A DNA stretch of 64,000 nt from Halolamina litorea (GTDB lineage: Archaea > Halobacteriota > Halobacteria > Halobacteriales > Haloferacaceae). The stretch is from the NCBI RefSeq assembly GCF_026616205.1, contig NZ_JANHGR010000003.1:124001-188000 (forward strand), in the 5' to 3' direction. This document shows positions 11,106-40,526 of this stretch, piece after piece (the stretch's first letter is position 1; each line of letters opens with the position of its first letter). The position numbers and the translations under genes are program-made. The notes under the pieces were generated by a model. It made no database searches. It saw only the letters and a list, made by a program, of their open reading frames with translations, and was not told where the DNA came from.

Positions 11106-12035
11106 CTACTCGGCGCTGCCCGTGTCCTGTGTGACGATGAGGTCGAACGGCACGTCGGCGGGTTCGTCGTCGGGGGAGAGGTAGCCGCTGGCGAAAGCGG
11201 TGTACACCTGCTCGCTCTCGACGGTCACGTCGAAGTCGGCGACGATTTCGCCGTCGTTGGACTCCGTGTCGCCACGGATCTCCAGGGTGTAGTCGCCCGC
11301 CGGGACTTCCACGGAGCCGGACTCGCCGAAGGCGACGCCGTCGAACAGCACCGTCTCGCCGCCGCCGACGGTGATGTCCACGGCTGGTGCGTCGGGCGAC
11401 GCGTGGACCGCACGGACGCGGGCGGTGCCACTCTCGGGCGGTTCGAGGTCGTCCTCGAGGATCAGCGGGGAGAACGGCTGGTCGGCGTCGGAGGCCACCT
11501 CGCCGATGGCGGCCACGGTGTAGGCCATCTCGGCTTCGACTGTCACCTCGCCCTCGAAGACGACGGTATCGGGCTGACCGGTCGGCGTGACGACGACGGT
11601 GTGTTCCCCGGCAGAGAGCGCCAGATAGTCGCTGACGGTCCCGAAGGGGACGTCCTCCAGTACGGCCGTCCCGTCGACGGACACGTCGACGTTCGGGGCG
11701 TCCGGTGAGAGGTGGGCGACGCGGACCATCGCCTCGCCGGCCGGCGTCTCGGTCTCGGTTTCTGTCTCCTCGGGAGCCTCCGTCTCGGTTTCCGTCCCCT
11801 CGGCCGGCGTGTCGGTGTCGGTCCCCATCGGTTCGTCCGTCTCGGTGTCCATCGACGTGCCGGTGCCGTCGGTGGCCATCGTCCCGTTGGGCGATCCGTC
11901 GGTGTCGGTCCCCGTGCCCCCACAGCCCGCGAGGAGGACGGTACCGACGACTGAGCCCGTGAGGGCGACGAAGCGGCGGCGTGTCGGCGGTGATACGTCG
12001 GTGGACTCTGACGGCGTGTCTGTTGGATCGGACAT
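11106..12035 (-). CDS. DUF4397 lipoprotein with two repeats
   Basis: The 309-residue exported protein starts MSDPTDTPSESTD. It has a twin-arginine-like RRRFVAL stretch and a lipobox LLAGC (Cys about 38), followed by a Thr/Glu/Asp-rich linker of about 65 residues. Two DUF4397 repeats then appear: VRVAHLSPDAPNVDVSVDG and VRAVHASPDAPAVDITVGG, each followed by AGEHTVVV/AGDYTLEI-type strands. It should be a lipid-anchored surface beta-sandwich protein. DUF4397 proteins have no established function. The linker is typical of haloarchaeal surface stalks. Confidence 0.88.
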   Translation of the reverse strand: MSDPTDTPSESTDVSPPTRRRFVALTGSVVGTVLLAGCGGTGTDTDGSPNGTMATDGTGTSMDTETDEPMGTDTDTPAEGTETETEAPEETETETETPAGEAMVRVAHLSPDAPNVDVSVDGTAVLEDVPFGTVSDYLALSAGEHTVVVTPTGQPDTVVFEGEVTVEAEMAYTVAAIGEVASDADQPFSPLILEDDLEPPESGTARVRAVHASPDAPAVDITVGGGETVLFDGVAFGESGSVEVPAGDYTLEIRGDTESNDGEIVADFDVTVESEQVYTAFASGYLSPDDEPADVPFDLIVTQDTGSAE

Positions 12036-32491: not shown

Positions 32492-32533
32492 GGAACACAC
32501 ACACCCCGGGTGTCGAGTGTAAGTGCCAAAATA
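32492..32533 (-). repeat. Left arm of ~42-base origin inverted repeat
   Basis: Reverse complement reads TATTTTGGCACTTACACTCG and continues through CACCCGGGGTGTGTG and GTTCC. It is nearly identical to 32948-32990 in the opposite direction, with the AT-rich region between them. Confidence 0.85.
32502..32521 (-). repeat. Origin recognition box ORB1
   Basis: Exact consensus TACACTCGACACCCGGGGTG on the minus strand; the only ORB in this orientation, left of the AT-rich region. Confidence 0.85.
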
Positions 32534-32764
32534 CGGTGGTGGGAGTCCTTCTACGACGCGGTCACGAATCGGCCGAAGTGGCGAAAGCGCAGAGTAGGAC
32601 GGTGGTGTACACGAGATCCAGCACGACCTCGTCGATTCCTCGATCCATCGGGACGTTCTGTCGTCGAGGCCCGAACAGATCATGGCGGATGGCCGCAGCC
32701 GAACAAATGCTACTTAAAAGACGGCGCGACTGTACAATTCAGGACGTGTGGGTTACTCTCTTCT

Positions 32765-32870
32765 TGCGTTCTCAGATGTCTGTTTTGCTGCTACAATAAA
32801 ATATATACCATAGATATAGATAGTAGTAGTAGTAGCAGTCCCAGACACGAAGTAGGAGTCTACTAACTAC
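32765..32870. other. AT-rich DNA unwinding element candidate
   Basis: Contains ACAATAAAATATATACCATA, then ATAGATATAGA and five TAG triplets (about 32819-32835), in striking contrast to the GC-rich surroundings, and lies between oppositely oriented ORBs. This is the layout of archaeal origins. Confidence 0.75.
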
Positions 32871-32947
32871 TGTTCGTGGCGTTGTCGTCGCTGTACCGTC
32901 TACCGTCCCAATTTGGTAAACGCGGCGAAGCGACCCCCCACCCCCAC

Positions 32948-32990
32948 TATTTTGGCCATTTACACTCGACACCCGGGGTGTGTGTGTTCC
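32948..32990 (+). repeat. Right arm of ~42-base origin inverted repeat
   Basis: TATTTTGGCCATTTACACTC continuing through the full ORB and GTGTGTGTTCC; matches the left arm with about one indel and one mismatch. Confidence 0.85.
32961..32980 (+). repeat. Origin recognition box ORB2
   Basis: Exact TACACTCGACACCCGGGGTG, plus strand. Confidence 0.85.
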
Positions 32991-33090
32991 CCCACTCGCC
33001 GTTCGTGTGAGCGAGTCGACCCCTGAGGTATAGTCGGTACCGACAGCGTGATCTGCCGGGACGCCACGTCGACGTCGTCGGCCAATTGAA

Positions 33091-33110
33091 TACACTCGAC
33101 ACTTGGGGTG
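33091..33110 (+). repeat. Origin recognition box ORB3
   Basis: TACACTCGACACTTGGGGTG, two differences from consensus. Confidence 0.8.
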
Positions 33111-33153
33111 GTCTCGGGCAACACGGGGCGAGAGTACCAGAAACGTCAACGGA

Positions 33154-33173
33154 TACACTCGACACCCGGGGTC
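33154..33173 (+). repeat. Origin recognition box ORB4
   Basis: TACACTCGACACCCGGGGTC, last base differs. Confidence 0.82.
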
Positions 33174-33218
33174 GGACCTGGCAGTATAGGGTGACATTAA
33201 CACGGATATCTCAACCGT

Positions 33219-33238
33219 TACACTCGACATCTGGGGTT
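33219..33238 (+). repeat. Origin recognition box ORB5
   Basis: TACACTCGACATCTGGGGTT, three differences from the consensus. Confidence 0.75.
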
Positions 33239-33318
33239 CTCCGGCCGTCGACCGGGACGAGAAGCGTGAGTTGTGTATTCAGCACTCTAGCGGCCTATAT
33301 CGGACGTATTCGGGTGGA

Positions 33319-33338
33319 TACTCTCGACGCCCGGTGTG
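33319..33338 (+). repeat. Degenerate origin recognition box ORB6
   Basis: TACTCTCGACGCCCGGTGTG, immediately before the orc1 promoter; it could link ORB binding to orc1 autoregulation. Confidence 0.6.
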
Positions 33339-33351
33339 TCTCATCCCGCAT

Positions 33352-33359
33352 CTTTATAG
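33352..33359 (+). promoter_or_regulatory. TATA box for orc1/cdc6
   Basis: CTTTATAG lies about 55 bases before the ATG at 33414 and 14 bases after ORB6, giving a leader of about 25-30 bases. Confidence 0.5.
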
Positions 33360-33413
33360 TGCCACACCGGCTGTCGTGTGTAACATGGAGCGGAAAAGTC
33401 GGGTGGAAGGCTG

Positions 33414-34643
33414 ATGGGCGAGGAGGCACAGAGCTCCCTCGACTCCATCTGGGAGAGCAAGGACCCCATCTTCGCCGATAAGGAACTCCTCGACATCGAG
33501 CACATCCCCGACGAGGACCGGATCATCGGGCGCGAGGACGAGATTTCCGACCTCGCGAACGGCATCCATCCGGCGATCCGCGGCGGCAAGCCCCGGAACA
33601 CGCTGATCTACGGCAAGACGGGGACCGGCAAGAGCCTCGTCGCGAAACACGTCACCCGGAGTGCCGAGGCGTTCGCCCAGGAACAGGGCACACGACTACA
33701 GCGGGCCTACATTGACTGTACACAAGCGACGACCGAGACGCAGGTCGTCATCAAGCTGGCTCGCGCGTTCAACGACCCCGACGAGACCGACATCTCCGTG
33801 CCGCTCTCCGGACTCTCGACGAACGCCTACTACGACCGCCTCTGGCGGGTCCTCGACGCGCGCCACGACGTCGTGATCATCATCCTCGACGAGGTCGACA
33901 AGCTTCAGGAGAACAACGTCCTGATGCAGCTCTCCCGGGCAGGCGAGGCCGGCAAACTCGACACCTGCAAGGTCGGCATCCTCGCGATCAGCAACAAGAT
34001 CTCGTTCAAGGACAGCCTCGACGAGCGCGTCCTGAGCAGCCTGCAGGAGCGGGAGTTCATCTTCCCACCGTACGACGCCAATCAACTCCGAGAGATCATG
34101 CGCCACCGGAAGGACGCCTTCCACGAGGGCGTGCTCACCGACGACGCGATCCCGCTGGCGGCGGCGTTCGCCGCACAGGAGCACGGCGACGCTCGGAAGG
34201 CGCTCGACATCCTCCGGAACGCCGGCGAACTCGCCAAGGACGACGGCGACGACCTTGTTCGGGAGGAACACGTCAGGAACGCCAGGGAGAAAGCCGACGT
34301 CGACCGGTTCTCGAAACTGCTGCAGGATCAGCCGACGCAGTCGAAAGCGGCGGTCTACGCGCTCTCGCTCATCGCCGACGCCAAGAACGACGAGGAGTTC
34401 GCGACCCGTGAGATCTACGAGCGCTACGAGCAACTGACCGAGCGGCTGGACATCGACGCGCTCTCGCAGCGACGGTTGGCCGACCGGCTCAACGAACAGG
34501 CGTTCCTCGACATCCTCGGCGTCACTGACCGTGTGGGCCGCGGGCGTGGGAAGGGGATGACGAACTTCTACTACCTCCTCGAGGACCCCGGGGTCGTCCA
34601 GACCGCCATCGAGTCCGATCAGCGCTTCTCCGAGAGCGAGTAG
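33414..34643 (+). CDS. orc1/cdc6: Orc1/Cdc6 replication initiator
   Basis: 409 residues, AAA+ ATPase followed by a winged-helix domain. Walker A is NTLIYGKTGTGKSLVAKHV (about residues 62-80), Walker B VIIILDEVDKLQENN, sensor 1 GILAISNKISFKDSLDER, sensor 2 GDARKALDILRNAGELA, and the C-terminal wHTH EIYERYEQLTERLDIDALSQ...LGVTDRVGRGRGKG. It should bind the surrounding ORBs, open the AT-rich element and load MCM. Its position in the middle of ten ORBs makes it the cognate initiator. Length is normal and nothing is missing. Confidence 0.96.
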   Translation: MGEEAQSSLDSIWESKDPIFADKELLDIEHIPDEDRIIGREDEISDLANGIHPAIRGGKPRNTLIYGKTGTGKSLVAKHVTRSAEAFAQEQGTRLQRAYIDCTQATTETQVVIKLARAFNDPDETDISVPLSGLSTNAYYDRLWRVLDARHDVVIIILDEVDKLQENNVLMQLSRAGEAGKLDTCKVGILAISNKISFKDSLDERVLSSLQEREFIFPPYDANQLREIMRHRKDAFHEGVLTDDAIPLAAAFAAQEHGDARKALDILRNAGELAKDDGDDLVREEHVRNAREKADVDRFSKLLQDQPTQSKAAVYALSLIADAKNDEEFATREIYERYEQLTERLDIDALSQRRLADRLNEQAFLDILGVTDRVGRGRGKGMTNFYYLLEDPGVVQTAIESDQRFSESE

Positions 34644-34658
34644 CCTGCTGGCCAGTTT

Positions 34659-34678
34659 TTCACTCGACACCCGGGGTG
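34659..34678 (+). repeat. Origin recognition box ORB7
   Basis: TTCACTCGACACCCGGGGTG, one base from the consensus, 15 bases after the orc1 stop. Confidence 0.82.
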
Positions 34679-34762
34679 GTCGACCTGTCCGAGCCCGCAC
34701 CCGTTCGACACGCGAGCACCGAAACGACGTTACGAACGCTCTCGAAGCTGATACCGGGAACT

Positions 34763-34782
34763 TACACTCGACACGAGGGGTG
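34763..34782 (+). repeat. Origin recognition box ORB8
   Basis: TACACTCGACACGAGGGGTG, two differences from consensus. Confidence 0.78.
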
Positions 34783-34889
34783 GGGGCGACGTAGCTCGGG
34801 CCTCTCGACGGCGAGACCGTTCGGACCGGCCCCGAACGTCACGGTAATCGCTTCGCCCTCGGCGCCGACGTCCCGACACCCGGTCACGT

Positions 34890-34909
34890 TACACTCGACA
34901 CCCGGGGTG
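34890..34909 (+). repeat. Origin recognition box ORB9
   Basis: Exact TACACTCGACACCCGGGGTG. Confidence 0.85.
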
Positions 34910-35051
34910 ATTCGGTACCGGCGACGGTGACCGACGCCGATAGACAGCGACAGTGATCGGCGCCGATGGCCGGCATCCGACGCACACGCTACCCACTCTC
35001 GCCGATAGGCGAACCCCTGAGAACCCTCAAAAAGCCTGTATCCGGCGGTTT

Positions 35052-35071
35052 TACACTCGACACCCGGGGTG
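35052..35071 (+). repeat. Origin recognition box ORB10
   Basis: Exact TACACTCGACACCCGGGGTG, ten bases before the long inverted repeat. Confidence 0.85.
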
Positions 35072-35080
35072 ATGGCCGGA

Positions 35081-35128
35081 GTCTTAACCAACAACACCGC
35101 GCCATTCAGGCCGGTTGTTGGTTAAGAC
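35081..35128. repeat. Perfect 15-base inverted repeat at origin edge
   Basis: GTCTTAACCAACAAC (35081-35095) and GTTGTTGGTTAAGAC (35114-35128) with an 18-base spacer. The TTAACCAACA core and its inverse recur at 44203-44242. Confidence 0.8.
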
Positions 35129-39663: not shown

Positions 39664-40526
39664 CGGTCGATCCCTCCACGCTCGACGATCGAAGCCAACT
39701 CGGCGTAGTTCTCCAGTTGGTCACAGTCGCCGTCAAAGTCACGAACCGGCAGCCCGGCGTCGTGGGCGGCGTCGATGGACCCGCGGAAGCGGATCCCCGG
39801 CAGGCCGCCGTCGTACTCGCCGGCGTCGATGGCGTCCCACTCCTCCTCGGTGATCCGGGCGTAGGACGGGACGATGTCGTCGGCGATGTCGAGGGAGTTG
39901 AGCTGTTCGAGTAGCCCGCGGTCGCGGGTGTCCTGATCGATCCTGCTGTTCAGCGCTGTCGGCGTCACCGCGAGGATGTTCAGTTCGAAGTACTCGCGGG
40001 CGTCCTCGACGAGCCGCTGGATCGTGTTCGAGAGCCCCGAGTCGTAGCCGCTCTCGGGTTTGAGCGGGATGATGATGTTCCCCGTCGCGTACATCGCGTT
40101 GTCGTTCAGTTTCCCGCGGTTCGCCGGGCAGTCGACGACGATGTAGTCGTAGGTTTCCCCCAGCAGCGGGTCGACCAGGTGCTTGCGGAGCCGCGCACTC
40201 CCCATCGTCGCGTTCCGGAGTTCGTTCTCGACGGACTCCAGTTCGGTGTGAGCCGGGAACAGGTCGAGGCCGTCGACGACGTTCACGGTGTATTGGGTCG
40301 GGTCCTCCCCCTCGACGAGGACGCGCTTCGTGTGGTTGGTCTCGCTCGTGAACTCCGCTTCGAAGCCCAACTGCCGAGTCATGTGGCCGTTGTCGTCGAG
40401 GTCGACGACGAGGGCGCTGTCGTTCCGGTGGGCGAGTTCGCGTGCGGTGTTGATCGCGGTGGTCGTCTTACCGAACCCCCCCTTCAACACGCCGACGCTG
40501 ACCGCCCGAGGTGCTGTCTCAGTCAT
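39660..40526 (-). CDS. parA: ParA-family partition ATPase
   Basis: 288 residues. Deviant Walker A VGVLKGGFGKTTTAINTARE (about residues 11-30), DLDDNGHMTRQLG, Walker B-like YDYIVVDCPANRGKLNDN and NIIIPLKPESGYDSGLSN. It is the MinD/ParA class, forming a nucleoid-bound ATP gradient that moves replicons. It is divergent from nothing else nearby but is preceded by direct and inverted ACCTNAGGT repeats (40540-40860), the likely centromere. Its companion follows with a 4-base overlap. Confidence 0.92.
   Translation of the reverse strand: MTETAPRAVSVGVLKGGFGKTTTAINTARELAHRNDSALVVDLDDNGHMTRQLGFEAEFTSETNHTKRVLVEGEDPTQYTVNVVDGLDLFPAHTELESVENELRNATMGSARLRKHLVDPLLGETYDYIVVDCPANRGKLNDNAMYATGNIIIPLKPESGYDSGLSNTIQRLVEDAREYFELNILAVTPTALNSRIDQDTRDRGLLEQLNSLDIADDIVPSYARITEEEWDAIDAGEYDGGLPGIRFRGSIDAAHDAGLPVRDFDGDCDQLENYAELASIVERGGIDR

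Follow-up and report, generated by a model that had tools for sequence, protein, structure and literature searches.

The window analysed here, a stretch of 64,000 nt, corresponds to C3:124001-188000 of the genome of Halolamina litorea (3.02 Mb, four contigs). It contains an orc1/cdc6 gene on the plus strand (33414-34643), encoding an initiator protein of 409 aa with an AAA+ domain, a lid and a C-terminal winged helix. The protein scores 422 bits against TIGR02928, for which the cut-off is 181 bits, the Cdc6 lid and the Cdc6_C winged helix are both detected, and the best solved relatives are the crenarchaeal Orc1 structures of Aeropyrum and Saccharolobus (2v1u, 225 bits; 2qby_A, 220 bits). Genes for MFS, HTH_10, GNAT and P-type ATPase proteins make up the neighbourhood. 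Eleven ORBs surround orc1/cdc6, seven upstream, four downstream and none within the gene. As at other haloarchaeal origins, a full-length initiator gene with AAA+ and winged-helix domains adjoins the ORBs, some of which form inverted repeats in the intergenic region next to it.

The first two ORBs enclose the core of the locus. ORB1 (box 32502-32521, minus strand) lies in the left core arm at 32492-32531, and ORB2 (box 32961-32980, plus strand) lies in the right core arm at 32951-32990, with the G-end of each extended box pointing outward, to the left and to the right, respectively. The two arms are 40 nt long and 93% complementary, with 31 contiguous perfect positions, in agreement with the inverted arms of about 42 bases described in a first-pass annotation of this DNA. 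Between the inverted ORBs, the core block (32523-32959) holds an AT-rich unwinding element on the plus strand (32776-32840) with the conserved motif AATAAAATATATA..ATATAGATAGTAGTAGTAG, a further trait of haloarchaeal origins. AT content peaks at 74% over 50 nt (32776-32825) against a mean of 34% for C3, which is 66% GC. No other part of C3 is as rich in AT, whichever window size between 50 and 200 nt was used, and only a few equally AT-rich places occur in 2.22 Mb of the genome. The AT-rich core of the annotation is also upheld. A C-rich run at 32934-32947 lies beside ORB2. It is not conserved in relatives and is the only feature of the locus that recalls the G-rich enhancer repeat of oriC1, which was rejected as a component here.

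The remaining upstream boxes lead from the core to the initiator gene. ORB3 (33091-33110) and ORB4 (33154-33173) are co-oriented on the plus strand, followed on the same strand by ORB5 (33219-33238), which begins 100 nt before ORB6 (33319-33338). ORB6 is the first half of a pair at the orc promoter, as ORB7 (33363-33382) is inverted on the minus strand and converges with it at 44 bp. A putative TATA box of orc (TTTATAG, 33352-33358, plus strand) lies between the two, and its position is aligned across relatives. Downstream, ORB8 (34659-34678) starts 16 nt past the stop codon, ORB9 (34763-34782) follows 104 nt after it, and ORB10 (34890-34909) and ORB11 (35052-35071) complete a cluster of four plus-strand boxes, all of them within 430 nt of the orc stop codon. 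Nine boxes end in GGGG, the G-string typical of haloarchaeal ORBs; the other two, ORB6 and ORB7, have CCGGTGTG in its place. Just past the last ORB, a 15-nt perfect inverted repeat, GTCTTAACCAACAAC / GTTGTTGGTTAAGAC (35081-35128), marks the right boundary. The first-pass annotation had extended the origin to 35128, which holds for the ORB array up to its last box, whereas the terminal segment is a separate stem-loop outside the array. The repeat has no second copy in the genome, which rules out a genome-wide repeat element, and it is possibly a terminator or a protein-binding site.

Ten boxes, one in minus orientation at 32502 and nine in plus orientation, had been recognised in the annotation, and all ten were recovered at their positions. 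The total had to be raised by the inverted ORB7, which had been missed and which scores 28.7 bits against a profile derived from the family. With this profile, the boxes range from 26.9 to 40.4 bits, and the best other site on C3 reaches 15.0 bits. The 18-mer core of the box with up to three mismatches gives 12 matches in the window, compared with 0.29 expected from shuffled sequences. Across the 3.02-Mb genome, its eight matches with up to two mismatches all fall at the origin locus. A search of 2.22 Mb with the full 20-mer and up to four mismatches likewise returned only this locus, apart from two strays with four mismatches each. Together, these searches rule out boxes scattered over the genome, the outcome that would have spoken against an origin here. 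Within this genome, the searches support the suggested origin specificity of the CACTCGA/GGGG box, although the box is shared with the relatives of this Orc in other haloarchaea. Carriage of the extended box by viruses was also considered and rejected, as no exact match was found among viral contigs.

The end of C3 repeats its start exactly over 17,097 bp, and from this perfect terminal redundancy C3 closes into a circle 250,713 bp in length. A ParA-like ATPase gene at 40011-40505 of the window, 5.4 kb downstream of orc, is likely the partition gene of the replicon, and ParA genes likewise adjoin orc in the plasmid relatives. The cumulative GC skew of C3 reaches its global maximum at 157,425 in the linear calculation and at 157,433 in the circular, detrended calculation, equivalent to positions 33,425-33,433 of the window. 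The skew is positive for about 55 kb leftward of the locus and negative for about 55 kb rightward, and its range was exceeded in none of 5000 block shuffles. Beyond about 55 kb on either side the skew is flat, and the minimum (72 kb) is not antipodal. Origins of Haloquadratum also sit near high points of cumulative skew (PMC3119063). In the same genome, the ancestral-type oriC1 on C2 displays the same plus-to-minus turn, with a maximum at C2:68,585, 2.5 kb from its orc, both in the first 140 kb and over the whole contig. A further orc, located at 1.20 Mb on C1, has a weak turn of the opposite sense, so that skew is a proxy only; as the C1 skew is partial, with about 0.78 Mb missing, the polarity of oriC1 is taken from C2 alone.

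The number, orientation and uniqueness of the boxes, the AT-rich core, the intact orc, the circularity of C3, the position of the skew maximum and the conserved layout lead to the reading that this locus is very probably the bidirectional origin of a circular secondary replicon of 250,713 bp, a megaplasmid or minichromosome, with its own Orc1/Cdc6 of non-oriC1 type. The annotation's proposal of an origin adjoining orc1/cdc6 thus receives strong support from box uniqueness, the AT-rich core, the intact orc, the skew maximum and conservation across the family. During initiation, Orc would bind ORB1 and ORB2, whose extended boxes form an inverted and perfectly matched pair, and would open the AT-rich element, after which one MCM helicase would be loaded per side at the opened core. 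It is very unlikely, in comparison, that the locus is a dormant or relic origin whose anatomy is intact while another site replicates C3. Dormant cdc6-ORB origins with intact loci do occur in Haloferax mediterranei (PMC4595724), and C3 carries two further Orc-like genes, at C3:243421-244374 and C3:212749-213678. However, the former is truncated at its N-terminus, the latter is divergent and falls under the family cut-off, and no ORB-like array was seen near either of them. The replicon-wide skew maximum also falls at the window locus, where the boxes and the promoter pair are conserved.

Membership of the oriC1 family was defined by an Orc that passes the equivalog model for the conserved, ancestral-type Orc1 and by neighbouring genes such as signal peptidase and polA. 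The window Orc scores 334 bits against this model, below the cut-off of 501 bits, whereas the orc on C2 passes at 656 bits and has an adjacent signal peptidase gene, as judged by sequence. Model scores and neighbouring genes thus rule out oriC1 identity for the window locus. The locus does share inverted ORBs, outward G-ends, an AT-rich element and an adjoining orc with haloarchaeal oriC1 (orc7/cdc6A type; PMC3936714; PMC4010727), but oriC1 has a G-rich enhancer repeat, of which the C-rich run beside ORB2 resembles only half. Two inverted Orc sites around an AT-rich region are also found in ORB2-DUE-ORB3 of Sulfolobus oriC1, which is bound by Orc1-1 (PMC12141716). There, ORB3-DUE-ORB2 spans 130 bp and includes the UBP-bound ucm motif, in contrast to the 439-nt core of the window locus with its different conserved motif.

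In its main anatomy, an initiator gene flanked by its boxes, the locus is ordinary and belongs to a known kind of haloarchaeal origin, to which it adds a good but unexceptional member. ORBs on both sides of orc had been regarded as unusual in the first-pass annotation, a view at odds with the literature: the arrangement is described as general (PMC4010727), is found in Haloarcula hispanica (PMC3936714) and applies to about ten listed haloarchaeal origins (PMC3528665). Among these, the predicted origins at Halobacterium orc8/orc10, H. volcanii orc4 and Hlac_1078/2747/2997 have the same layout and halophile G-string ORBs, and the main text of that paper mentions neither a promoter ORB pair nor a core inversion (PMC3528665). 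A close match in layout is oriC2-cdc6E/oriC2D of Har. hispanica (PMC3936714), where inverted ORBs precede the initiator gene and an ORB-rich region follows it immediately, all of these ORBs having G-rich ends. Such a directly downstream cluster, the trait of oriC2D, is also present at the window locus, with four ORBs in place of 11.

In Har. hispanica, the 11 downstream ORBs restrain firing of oriC2, probably through titration of the initiator; the cluster alone supports no replication, reduces the copy number of plasmids and could not be deleted from cells that retained oriC2 (PMC3936714). By analogy, ORB8-ORB11, and perhaps ORB3-ORB5, would titrate Orc and restrain firing at the window locus, and ORB8-ORB11 most likely restrain the origin as the Har. 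hispanica cluster does, negative control by downstream ORBs having been demonstrated in that organism (PMC3936714) and being predicted here. As the number of downstream ORBs among relatives ranges from 0 to 16, titration is not essential everywhere. In six relatives whose Orc is about 70% identical (L134-L137, L142 and L143), 11 to 16 ORBs lie downstream of orc, many of them at steps of about 36 nt or 72-73 nt, and these series are putative titration arrays of very large size.

The promoter pair points to a second level of control. ORB6 and ORB7 converge on the orc TATA box, and ORBs overlap the TATA or transcription-start region of orc in relatives as well. The spacing of the pair is exactly 44 bp in all eleven close loci aligned, with the TATA box between, and 45 bp in three aligned relatives at 64-71% identity. 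A 45-bp pair is also found in further Haloferax loci at 64-66%, and other relatives at 66-71% are without the pair. Based on the usual archaeal spacing, ORB7 would lie between the TATA box and the expected start, where bound Orc should block orc transcription. Since ORB6 and ORB7 bracket the orc TATA box, Orc occupancy would repress its own transcription, and the pair suggests Orc autoregulation. In Sulfolobus, the paralogous Orc1-2 recognises another motif in its own promoter (PMC9738581). The promoter ORB pair was not found in the published papers searched. The boxes at the initiator promoter and the titrating extras parallel bacterial oriC-dnaA, with DnaA boxes at the dnaA promoter and titration by datA (cited in PMC3936714), but by analogy only, as the initiator-box pair is unrelated.

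It had also been suggested that Orc on the boxes of both sides loops over orc to form a single, gene-spanning initiation structure. The presence of boxes on both sides, their co-oriented series and certain conserved spacings are compatible with such an assembly: ORB5 and ORB6 lie 99-100 nt apart in nearly all close relatives, ORB6 and ORB7 keep their 44-45 bp, and ORB8 and ORB9 lie 103-104 nt apart in most close relatives. The distance of ORB8 from the stop codon is 11-52 nt in the close relatives that have this box. The assembly is nevertheless improbable, given the variation in downstream boxes from 0 to 16 and the inhibitory role of the Har. hispanica cluster, which is without origin activity (PMC3936714). 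An operator together with titration sites would explain the same anatomy and has precedent.

An Orc at least 85% identical to that of the window is encoded in seven other genomes among 170 sampled from the taxonomic family, is absent from all six sampled genomes of the same genus, and also occurs in other haloarchaeal families. This scattered distribution fits the mobile origin-initiator modules described for haloarchaea (PMC3528665). Relatives have an inverted core pair and, in most cases, additional direct boxes together with the promoter pair, and between 0 and 16 boxes lie downstream; in the Halopenitus loci (L025, L057) the core is rearranged. Relative to orc, the ORB1-ORB2 block occurs in both orientations, with five species each way. 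The window core (orientation A) aligns forward with L022, L024, L026 and L120, whereas L020, L021, L023, L031 and L130 (orientation B) align to it only as the reverse complement. None of the pairs among the ten loci contradicts the two classes, a few diverged pairs (e.g., with L021) scoring near background. Once the reversed cores are flipped, the distance between the motif AATAAAATATATA..TAGATAGTAGTAG and the reference ORB is 239-253 nt in most loci and 273 nt in the window, which argues that the entire core block turns. The stretch from ORB2 to orc is always forward in the same locus pairs, so that, with orc as the reference, only the core is inverted. As most left flanks share no similarity between loci, orientation is defined relative to orc, and the moving side is not assignable.

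On the orc tree of the ten loci, orientation requires three changes by parsimony, at least two of which are forced by well-supported branches, and we infer two to three inversions of the ORB1-ORB2 block in evolution. The core arms are perfect or near-perfect over 26-31 nt, and recombination between these inverted arms would be the simplest mechanism. It is rather unlikely that a single ancient inversion, followed by lineage sorting or gene exchange, produced both orientations. Only ten loci are available, and codon positions 1 and 2 alone do not reject one clade for all orientation-A loci (AU p = 0.33), but with all codon positions such a clade is rejected (AU p = 0.01). Furthermore, three Halorubrum loci differ in orientation inside a group with 98-99% support (L024 vs. 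L020 and L021), and the best matches to the inner block of L022 are, in reverse, those of orientation-B loci. The block has thus been turned round during evolution, and function apparently does not depend on which way the core faces with respect to orc.

The features that are new, a core flipped among relatives and an eleventh box on the promoter of orc itself, are found at the level of the family; no mention of the core inversion was found in the main texts of the papers searched. A bolder and still doubtful possibility, drawn from sequence comparison, is that the core is a reversible segment flipped repeatedly by recombination between the inverted ORB arms to which the initiator binds, perhaps within living populations, that the origin works both ways and initiation is functionally symmetric, and that the fixed 44-bp promoter pair links the supply of initiator to the occupancy of the origin. 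Since this element occurs both ways among related species, at a like distance from a core ORB, the comparison provides a natural experiment on whether an archaeal origin has a functional direction, given by the asymmetry of the unwinding element and its position beside orc. The promoter ORB pair offers a concrete and easily tested hypothesis of Orc autoregulation, beside titration.

Elsewhere in the window, a search for RNA families found none. A 96-nt tRNA-Glu (CTC) gene at 11181-11276 is the sole tRNA found on the 251-kb circle, and it may make this replicon hard to lose.
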